Under the pieces are notes generated by a model that made no database searches, had not been told where the DNA came from, and saw only the letters and a program-made list of their open reading frames with translations. Position numbers and translations under genes: made by a program. A stretch of 38,582 nucleotides of DNA, taken from assembly GCA_018817505.1 (NCBI GenBank), contig JAHITR010000185.1, positions 1 through 38,582 on the forward strand. The letters are read 5' to 3'. This document shows, piece after piece, positions 467 to 37,055 of the stretch (position 1 is its first letter; each line of letters opens with the position of its first letter). Source of the stretch: Candidatus Bipolaricaulota bacterium. Its GTDB lineage: Bacteria > Bipolaricaulota > Bipolaricaulia > UBA7950 > UBA9294.

Positions 467-596
467 ACTAAGAGTAGGTCCGAAAGGCTCTACAATGCAA
501 GAGAAGGGCAATCCTTACGAATGGGAGGGCTGTCTACTGGCTATCGGACGACTGCTCACGATCCTAGGACAACCGATATGCGGACCAGATCAATAG

Positions 597-648
597 GAAA
601 GCCCCTCAAGAGGGGCTTTCAGTCGTCTGGCTCCCCGTATCGGACTGC
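597..648 (-). repeat. Remnant of tRNA-Asn 3' end plus terminator (direct repeat of 1659-1711)
   Basis: On the minus strand this stretch reads through the last ~22 nt of a tRNA (AGTCC, then CGGGGAGCCA), the spacer GACGACTG, and a GAAAGCCCC/GGGGCTTTC hairpin. It matches the 3' end, spacer and terminator of the intact tRNA-Asn at 1659-1711 in the same orientation, with about 40 of 52 positions identical by eye, including 14 in a row (CGTCTGGCTCCCCG on the plus strand). The tRNA 5' half, anticodon arm and a pairing T-arm are missing, so it is not a functional tRNA. Confidence 0.6.
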
Positions 649-762
649 TTTCAAACCTCTCACGGGCTTGTGATCCCGTCAACACTCGCCCAGTTCGACT
701 TCTCGCAGCCGGAGGGCATGTCGATTCCTGCTTCAGCTTTAGCAGAGGGCGTGCCCAATCGT

Positions 763-768
763 TATTAT
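763..768 (+). promoter_or_regulatory. -10 box for a probably leaderless GNAT gene
   Basis: TATTAT lies 9 nt before the ATG at 778 and there is no Shine-Dalgarno before that ATG. No good -35 is visible. This spacing is what a leaderless transcript needs. Confidence 0.35.
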
Positions 769-777
769 GGTTCCGCC

Positions 778-1575
778 ATGGTTGCAAGTATCGAACACGA
801 TCCAGCCGATTTGACGTTCGAGGAATTCGCCTCGTTGAATGATGTGTGCTTCCCACACGAGCCTGTGAGCGAGGCTTCATTTGCCAATCGTTCATCACCT
901 CACATGTGGACGGTGAGAGTGAACGGGCTGCTCGTTGGCTACTCGAGCATGAGTCGCAGTTCGAAAGCACCACACATCAAGCGAATCGGGATTCATCCAG
1001 ACTTCCGCTCAAGAGGCTTCGCGAAGCGCCTCATGAAGCGGATGCTCTCTCTCGCTGCCGAAGAAAGTGTTTGCGAAGTACGCCTGCTGGTTGAGCAAGA
1101 CAACGACGCGGCGATTGGACTCTACCGCAGCTTCAATTTCGAGGTCACCGGTGAGAGCGTGCAGTTCTCATCCGTGGTCCGTTCATCAGGGAGCGAGGCG
1201 CATCGCGCAGTACCGATTGATGAATACGACTGGCCCCGTGACAGGCTACATCTCCCTGAGTCCCTCCAGATGCTGGCCAAGAGGCACAATCCTCCGCATT
1301 CACTTGTGCTGCTCTTCCTCGAAGAGGAGACACCAATCGGATACGCCCTGTTCTGCCCGGATTACCCGGGATGCTCTCCATTCGTTTTGCTGAGAGACTC
1401 GGTTGCCGTCGAGCAGGTAGTGGGGCTTCTCAATGACTATGCTTTGCCGGGCAAGCGTAACGTGAAGATTACAACAGCAGACTCCAAAGCCATCGCGACG
1501 TTTACACAAGTCGGGACTCATGTCAACTACAGGTTGTTCGAGATGACGAAGCGACTCACTTCATCTGATGAATGA
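778..1575 (+). CDS. Tandem GNAT-family N-acetyltransferase
   Basis: Acetyl-CoA dependent N-acetyltransferase of the GNAT superfamily; the acceptor substrate cannot be told. The first domain (about residues 1-125) has the acetyl-CoA binding strand and loop IGIHPDFRSRGFAKRLM and the terminal LLVEQDNDAAIGLYRSFNF. The second half (about 140-265) looks like a degenerate second GNAT fold (SLVLLFLEEETPIGYALF) without a clear pyrophosphate-binding loop, as in other two-domain GNATs with one dead half. Start choice: the frame is open to 670 and an ATG at 718 has GGAGGG only 1 nt away, but the ATG at 778 begins where GNAT homology would start and has a -10 box 9 nt upstream, so I prefer 778. The gene stands alone between two direct copies of a tRNA-Asn 3' end, which suggests it may have arrived by integration. 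Confidence 0.8.
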   Translation: MVASIEHDPADLTFEEFASLNDVCFPHEPVSEASFANRSSPHMWTVRVNGLLVGYSSMSRSSKAPHIKRIGIHPDFRSRGFAKRLMKRMLSLAAEESVCEVRLLVEQDNDAAIGLYRSFNFEVTGESVQFSSVVRSSGSEAHRAVPIDEYDWPRDRLHLPESLQMLAKRHNPPHSLVLLFLEEETPIGYALFCPDYPGCSPFVLLRDSVAVEQVVGLLNDYALPGKRNVKITTADSKAIATFTQVGTHVNYRLFEMTKRLTSSDE

Positions 1576-1658
1576 GAACCTCTCCCTGAAATCGGACTAG
1601 AGATTCGTGCAATGAAGCCTGCCGCATGTCGGTCTCGACAGTGGTACACTAGAAAGAC

Positions 1659-1683
1659 GAAAGCCCCTTGGAAAGGGGCTTTC
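1659..1683 (-). terminator. Rho-independent terminator of tRNA-Asn
   Basis: A perfect 9-bp stem (GAAAGCCCC / GGGGCTTTC) just after the tRNA CCA end on the minus strand, followed by T-rich CGTCTTTC. It may also stop the convergent GNAT transcript. Confidence 0.65.
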
Positions 1684-1690
1684 ATCCGTC

Positions 1691-1766
1691 TGGCTCCCCG
1701 GGTAGGACTTGAACCTACAACCATTCGGTTAACAGCCGAGCGCTCTGCCAATTGAGCTACCGAGGA
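1691..1766 (-). tRNA. tRNA-Asn (GTT)
   Basis: A complete 76-nt cloverleaf on the minus strand with encoded CCA. The acceptor arms TCCTCGG and CCGGGGA pair (one G-T pair), the D arm contains AGCTCAATTGGCAGAGC, the anticodon loop holds GTT (complement of 1731-1733) and the T arm is GTAGG TTCAAGT CCTAC. A terminator follows directly. The 165 bp upstream, up to the M20 peptidase gene, should hold its promoter, but no clean -35/-10 pair is visible. Confidence 0.97.
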
Positions 1767-5412: not shown

Positions 5413-5424
5413 GCGTATGTTAAA

Positions 5425-5541
5425 CCAGGCGACGTCCTACTCTCCCAGTCAGTTGCCCGACAAGTACCATCGGCGCAGGAGGGCTTAACTGCCGTGTTCG
5501 GGATGGAAACGGGTGTTTCCCCTCCGCTATATGTCACCTGG
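5425..5541 (-). rRNA. rrf: 5S ribosomal RNA
   Basis: A 117-nt gene on the minus strand. The ends CCAGGTGAC and GTCGCCTGG pair as the terminal helix. The conserved CACCCGTTTCCATCCCGAAC loop and the GTACTTG and GGGAGAGTAGG segments are all present. It lies 49 nt downstream of the 23S 3' region and shares its transcript. Confidence 0.95.
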
Positions 5542-5569
5542 AATCTCAAAGATCCTTCCAGACTCCAAG

Positions 5570-5590
5570 CAAGTGAACAGAGTGTGTACC

Positions 5591-5598
<8 letters not shown>
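5570..5598 (-). other. 3' strand of the 23S processing stem
   Basis: The 29 nt here pair along their whole length with 8539-8567 on the minus-strand transcript. The three positions that differ from Watson-Crick complementarity all become G-U pairs. This is the expected RNase III-type precursor stem around 23S rRNA. Confidence 0.75.
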
Positions 5599-8538
<2,940 letters not shown>

Positions 8539-8546
<8 letters not shown>

Positions 8547-8567
8547 GGCACACACTCTATTCACTTG
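8539..8567 (-). other. 5' strand of the 23S processing stem
   Basis: Pairs with 5570-5598 over 29 nt with only three G-U pairs and no mismatch. It starts immediately after the boxA-like element. Confidence 0.75.
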
Positions 8568-8597
8568 TCAAGGAGCAGCGCAGCACCTTCGCTGCGC
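8566..8597 (-). promoter_or_regulatory. boxB-like hairpin and boxA-like antitermination leader
   Basis: In transcript order there is a perfect 7-bp hairpin GCGCAGC/GCTGCGC with loop GAAGGT (8597-8578), then TGCTCCTTGACA (8577-8566). The latter matches the E. coli rRNA boxA TGCTCTTTAACA at 10 of 12 positions. The boxB-then-boxA order is that of rRNA leaders, which use NusB/NusE-dependent antitermination. The function is inferred from similarity. Confidence 0.55.
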
Positions 8598-8605
8598 AGA
8601 AGTCA

Positions 8606-8634
8606 ATCCTAACGCAGTTCCCGGAGCCTGTCAA
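8606..8634 (-). promoter_or_regulatory. Proximal promoter of the 23S-5S unit
   Basis: On the minus strand a perfect -35 TTGACA (8634-8629), a 17-nt spacer and a -10 TAGGAT (8611-8606), directly before the boxB/boxA leader. Confidence 0.65.
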
Positions 8635-8659
8635 GACTTCGATCGGGAACGACTGGGTA

Positions 8660-8688
8660 AGATTACCCCCCTGCCTACCGGCTGTCAA
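8660..8688 (-). promoter_or_regulatory. Distal promoter of the 23S-5S unit
   Basis: On the minus strand a perfect -35 TTGACA (8688-8683), a 17-nt spacer and a -10 TAATCT (8665-8660). With the proximal site it forms a tandem rRNA-type promoter pair. Confidence 0.6.
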
Positions 8689-8823
8689 GGAGTTTTGCAG
8701 AACACGTCTTCAGCGCACATGGGTGCTTCGTGCAAGATGCATTCTCATGCGATTTCCGCGATCTCGGGGAGCGCCGCGAATCATTGTCCCCTTTCTGCAA
8801 GACAGCGGACCAATTGCCATGAC

Positions 8824-36701: not shown

Positions 36702-37055
<354 letters not shown>

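Follow-up and report, generated by a model that had tools for sequence, protein, structure and literature searches.

A Candidatus Bipolaricaulota genome carries an intact tRNA-Asn gene separated by about 1 kb of DNA from a second, partial copy of its own 3' end, raising the question of whether the intervening DNA, with its acetyltransferase gene, was inserted at the tRNA and, if so, by what means. The locus lies near one end of the window, that is, the whole analysed stretch of 38,582 nucleotides, which is contig C39 of a MAG of 2.66 Mb (241 contigs, 92% complete, 4.96% contaminated). The first-pass annotation had offered two origins for it: site-specific integration at the tRNA 3' end, leaving a remnant devoid of an integrase, or tandem duplication and decay of the tRNA.

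The direct repeat and the interval it encloses

A repeat search of the window recovered a direct repeat of 45 nt (602-646 and 1665-1709; 80% identity, spacing 1063), which BLAST extends to 597-646 and 1659-1709 at 82%. When the 45-mer at 1665-1709 was slid along the 38.6 kb scanned, 36 of its 45 positions matched at 602 and 24 at the next best position in the window, while 200 shuffles of the 45-mer never exceeded 28 matches. Likewise, a 55-nt probe comprising 45 nt of flank and the final 10 nucleotides of the tRNA, and stopping at the tenth, found the second copy with a score of 53 (maximum of 25 in 100 shuffles), the match spanning 42 nt of the probe. These scores confirm that the 3' end of the tRNA-Asn is directly repeated in the same orientation, as had been claimed. 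Hence, the interval has the layout of an integrative element at a tRNA 3' end, with the intact tRNA at one end and the direct repeat at the other (Table 1).

Table 1. Features of the tRNA-Asn locus in the window, and matches of repeat Y tied to tRNA-Asn across the genomes searched
Feature	Location	Strand	Basis and remarks
Distal copy of the tRNA-Asn flank, hairpin stem intact	592..627	-	Repeat and probe scores; fold z -5.2
Distal copy of the final 10 tRNA nucleotides, CGGGGAGCCA on the - strand	628..637	-	Junction with Y at or just past its inner end
Repeat Y	638..705	+	Inner side of the distal junction; sequence-only model, E 1.4e-14 at 629-691
GNAT-family N-acetyltransferase gene	718..1575	+	PF00583, E 5.7e-18; start GTG 670 or ATG 718
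Proximal tRNA-Asn flank with hairpin terminator	1654..1690	-	Sequence; fold z -5.4
Intact tRNA-Asn (GTT), encoded CCA	1691..1766	-	ARAGORN; Rfam RF00005, 65.8 bits; proximal end of the interval
Y tied to tRNA-Asn by position	G000 (the window), G012, G021, G043 (two)
Y tied to tRNA-Asn by flank	G040:C69, G047:C26, G002:C263b
Y tied to tRNA-Asn by homologous locus	G041:C12 (two), G045:C54

The two terminators might resemble each other only because the genome reuses one terminator after many of its tRNAs, and the hairpin stems of the two copies are indeed similar. We regard this as scarcely credible: the tRNA-Asn flank scores 33 against its distal copy (shuffles reach at most 17), but its best score is 20 among the flanks of the 38 other tRNAs of the genome (ARAGORN finds 39 distinct tRNAs), a value that may itself reflect hairpin similarity, and the repeat additionally takes in 10 nt of the tRNA. 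Thus, the shared 3' spacer and terminator, for which other tRNAs were to be checked, recur at none of these 38.

The extent of the repeat proved narrower than had been proposed. The copies undoubtedly share the flank, with its terminator, and the acceptor end, that is, the final 10 tRNA nucleotides; of the nine positions beyond 637, six match the tRNA by eye. However, the GGACT found there also belongs to a separate conserved repeat, here termed Y, and we accordingly do not read it as the T-loop side that the earlier description had included. Since Y itself has GGACT at this point, the boundary of the distal junction is fuzzy by a few nucleotides. These observations also bear on a tandem duplication of the tRNA-Asn after which the second copy decayed. 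Such a history would account for the duplication of both the flank and the tRNA end, but past about 10 nt of the tRNA the distal copy lacks a recognisable tRNA body, its next bases instead following Y, which is found in 21 of 100 genomes, and Rfam detects no second tRNA there even at E values up to 5. Because the distal copy thus runs into Y, this second proposal of the first-pass annotation is unsupported, and we hold it to be very improbable.

The interval contains a single sizeable gene, that of the GNAT protein, and no integrase, on both of which counts the first-pass annotation was right. Its reading frame is open from 568, with the GTG at 670 as the first listed start; judged by eye, the ATG at 718, which follows a GGAGG, is the probable start. 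The nearest NCBIfam model is rimI, with a score under the model cut-off, and the PDB matches are generic acetyltransferases. The same GNAT is found in none of the 99 other genomes, where the best match has 36% identity with fewer than 115 residues aligned; hence none of these genomes has this gene and no repeat, the case that was to be looked for. At an E value of 1e-8, only four of the 99 have matches, at 28-36% identity over parts of the protein. A pattern scan for this protein returned no match in genome contigs; plasmids contain three partial matches (at most 35.5% identity).

Genes for an M20 peptidase, AMMECR1 and MGMT (Pfam), as well as a CDF transporter (by eye), neighbour the tRNA-Asn. 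An M20 homologue is present at the tRNA-Asn locus in 18 of 19 relatives, the exception being G008; AMMECR1, MGMT and CDF are seen in fewer, partly because less DNA is covered there. In G004, a member of the window's genus (g1), the M20 gene with the tRNA and a homologue of the gene at 1-345 are collinear and separated by about 6 kb of other genes, which indicates that both sides of the window interval belong to one locus. Elsewhere in the window we observed 5S and 23S rRNA genes on the - strand (5424-8546), the window having no 16S match, as well as a tmRNA gene (36702-37055).

Repeat Y and its junctions with tRNA-Asn

We aligned 19 copies of Y into a profile and searched a sequence-only model of it against 100 genomes, the identical set being covered at class and phylum level. 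There are at least 60 matches in at least 21 of the 100 genomes, that of the window included, counts that are lower bounds because the search filters lose weak matches. The window's genome has one full copy, that in the window, and one partial match of 25 nt (on C210); by match length the nearest copies are those of G005:C38 and G002:C200. A pattern of the Y core matched five loci in genome contigs, all titled Candidatus Bipolaricaulota, and had no match in IMG/VR. In literature searches on integrative or mobile elements of Bipolaricaulota, tycheposons and cassettes with tRNA genes, none of the titles and abstract openings describes this repeat.

The 19 copies yield no consensus structure, with a fold z near 0 on both strands. 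Their third codon positions look freer across genera (18 rows, two of them out of register); within genus g16, the synonymous excess and absence of stops are weak (P 0.12 and 0.05, from 15 of the 19 rows, four having been excluded beforehand as divergent or frame-shifted), and we rejected Y as a coding sequence. Many g16 copies precede genes or operons, and near them is what may be an IS3-like terminal sequence. In genus g7, many contigs contain a related modular repeat, which is also seen at contig ends. This relative (L278-L289, L150-L152, L249) has the core TAGTGGACAACTTTNGAACTTTTGAGTGGCC, many copies and several alternative right-hand tails, one of which reads as the peptide end WPKPEILAALYTR followed by a stop; by eye, its copies differ largely by synonymous changes.

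We examined 21 tRNA-Asn loci, namely the window, 19 relatives and G043, which was included for its Y match. Y lies 0.7-1.5 kb 3' of the tRNA-Asn and in the same orientation in four of them (those of the window, G012, G021 and G043), the first three copies having been part of the profile and that of G043, weaker at E 2.8e-4, lying outside it. Among the 17 without Y, five (G002, G007, G015, G018 and G019) cover less than 1 kb of that side. At 16 loci with at least 1.5 kb available, we searched for a second copy of the flank and tRNA end, and found one far above shuffles at two, the window and G021. The latter belongs to another genus, and there Y is abutted by 48 nt that repeat the flank and acceptor end of the tRNA-Asn of G021 itself (score 76 vs 24), both flank and cargo being unrelated to those of the window. 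G004 has a marginal 21-nt terminator match (32 vs 28) lacking the tRNA end. The remaining 13 loci have no flank repeat above shuffles; they include G012 and G043, two of the four with Y near the tRNA-Asn.

A converse comparison, of the left sides of the 19 Y copies with the tRNA-Asn flanks of their own genome or genus, gave matches at 0 of 500 shuffles for five copies: the window, G002:C263b, G047:C26, G021:C41 and G040:C69, from genera g1, g10 and g7. A further two of the 19 match at 1 of 500 shuffles, and 12 show no match to a tRNA flank. The left side of one of these two, G002:C263a, fits a flank of another genus (G017, score 32) better than its own (22), which suggests that terminators alone can match, and the two marginal copies were given no weight. 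An end common to other insertions at the same site is thereby seen near the tRNA-Asn in the window, G012, G021 and G043, and joined to its flank in G040 and G047.

An interrupted and an uninterrupted site are seen in genus g7. In G010, the tRNA-Asn continues straight into the chromosome, whereas in G040:C69, Y stands in place of the tRNA body after the final 10 tRNA-Asn nucleotides; from these 10 nucleotides outward, 1326-2497 of G040:C69 is 95.3% identical to G010:C76 over 1172 nt. Since the tRNA-Asn of G040 itself was not located, the other end of its insertion is not seen. The search for an empty site in relatives, which had been suggested as a check, gave the uninterrupted locus of G010 in g7 but no empty site for the insertion of the window: in its own genus, g1, the contig of G002 ends at the tRNA and G004 has other DNA.

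In total, 11 of the 60 Y matches could be tied to tRNA-Asn, five by position, three by flank and three by homologous locus (Table 1), and no such tie could be made for the other 49. The contigs of G040, G045, G041 and G002 end either near Y or at the tRNA. The 49 matches, along with the many copies that precede genes or operons and the g7 relatives scattered over contigs and contig ends, favor an alternative in which Y is a dispersed intergenic repeat of some unspecified mover, it arrived or recombined at tRNA-Asn through rearrangement between repeats, and the GNAT interval is ordinary chromosome trapped between them rather than a mobile unit. Yet this alternative, which we consider unlikely, leaves unexplained why, in three genera that each have a flank of their own, Y should be joined to the acceptor end and flank of tRNA-Asn.

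Three other sequences related to tRNA-Asn were seen in these searches. A 27-nt tRNA-Asn end in G036:C12 was rejected as a tRNA gene, as ARAGORN finds no tRNA-Asn there. At about 6230-6335 of G046:C127 (L162), an inverted pair of the repeat core comes after an apparent tRNA-Asn remnant that, by eye, is devoid of D and anticodon arms. In G047:C243 (L148), the 3' part of a tRNA-Asn with its flank (8546-8698) is joined inside the tRNA to unrelated sequence, either as an insertion scar or through misassembly.

Candidate recombinases

No site-specific recombinase is encoded inside the interval, and the single PF00589 match of the genome lies on another contig (C185) and has relatives of 62-81% identity in several genera. 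Of 30 PF00589 loci scanned (from 39 matches), one has Y nearby, namely G040:C9, which holds a 91-aa C-terminal fragment; the wider flanks of 12 integrase regions contain no significant Y. REP sequences are dispersed intergenic repeats moved by REP-associated tyrosine transposases; Y resembles them in being dispersed and intergenic and differs in showing no hairpin. Neither Y nor its core lies within about 1.5 kb of any of the 30 transposase loci scanned, out of 73 matches, and we rejected such an origin of Y as a rule, the one array of this kind being in G002:C5. There (L163, 1215-1420), five Y-core matches of both orientations share about 140 nt, roughly 250 nt ahead of a gene for a REP-associated tyrosine transposase. 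Among the PF00589 and REP-associated tyrosine transposase loci scanned, we found no recombinase tied to Y.

Two further recombinase arrangements were noted in these genomes. At 190-2611 of G047:C237 (L171, L195), three neighbouring matches to tyrosine recombinases stand on the same strand, the layout of recombinase-in-trio elements, with no Y in the DNA examined around them. In G012:C2, G043:C99 and G041:C73 (L302, L303 and L304), integrase genes adjoin or overlap in open frame a tRNA-Gly, a tRNA-Ser and a tRNA-Thr, respectively; these are perhaps ordinary tRNA-targeting elements.

A probable insertion at the tRNA 3' end and its relation to known systems

The best reading of these sequence comparisons, and in our view a probable one, is a site-specific insertion at the 3' end of tRNA-Asn in which Y forms the end of the inserted unit. 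The first-pass annotation's proposal of site-specific integration is supported by the flanks and acceptor ends that abut Y in three genera with different flanks and by the uninterrupted and interrupted sites of g7. Under this proposal, the interval 638-1690 would be a small inserted unit of about 1.06 kb, or what survives of a larger one. Site-specific recombination at the 3' end of tRNA-Asn would have brought it into the chromosome through a crossover in or beside the final ~10 nt of the tRNA; one end would have kept the whole tRNA, and the other would consist of a second tRNA 3' end and terminator joined to Y. The responsible recombinase would have acted at both Y and the tRNA-Asn, in trans or encoded by a gene since lost, and the GNAT gene presumably arrived together with the unit. 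The first-pass annotation had called the unit a remnant; it may be a decayed element or a non-autonomous unit, and it may also be an integrase-less cassette moved in trans.

The cargoes of other Y units are diverse. In G021, the unit encodes a PLD-family nuclease and an RHH protein (Pfam), and this stretch recurs in G047 with 93.5% identity over 1006 nt beside a different flank. This sits awkwardly with a simple model in which the unit itself brings the flank copy seen at the tRNA end: it may have acquired a flank present locally, or insertion may have duplicated about 45 nt of the target. In G043, two co-oriented Ys and a WD-repeat-like gene (by eye) lie beside the tRNA-Asn, and at the homologous locus of G041 a pair of co-oriented Ys flanks a gene with an SPFH domain.

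Integration at tRNA genes leaves partial tRNA copies, as in PYG1, a genomic island of about 21.4 kb at the tRNA-Gln of Pyrococcus yayanosii with 44-bp repeats (PMC9897764). Like PYG1, the window unit has an intact tRNA at one end and a partial direct copy at the other, and its repeat of ~42-48 nt is comparable to the 44 bp there; unlike it, the unit is only about 1.06 kb long, holds a single sizeable gene and lacks an integrase.

Y units resemble integron cassettes and clusters of integrase-less cassettes in their small size, the variety of their genes, their conserved site and the shared orientation of several of them. However, Y contains no attC-like or other conserved hairpin, it is linked to a tRNA gene, and no integron integrase was identified in the genome, whose one PF00589 match is that with the 62-81% relatives (at 92% completeness). 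The GNAT, PLD/RHH (G021, and G047 by DNA identity), WD-repeat-like (G043) and SPFH (G041) cargoes point to a bolder, rather unlikely possibility, namely that Bipolaricaulota possess integrase-less cassettes that share the site Y and differ in their small cargoes, that a putative recombinase moves them in trans, and that they prefer the tRNA-Asn 3' end, where they can stack in one orientation. This would in effect be a system like an integron, with a tRNA gene as its anchor instead of attI.

That tRNA 3' ends serve as landing sites is known; what sets the present case apart is a unit of about 1 kb that has no integrase and has a conserved end in common with units of other cargo across genera of an uncultured phylum. 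If this sharing of Y reflects movement in trans, it would point to a cassette-like route, so far unrecognised, by which Bipolaricaulota gain genes; if there is no such movement, Y would still mark tRNA-Asn insertions precisely and so help to find them in this group.
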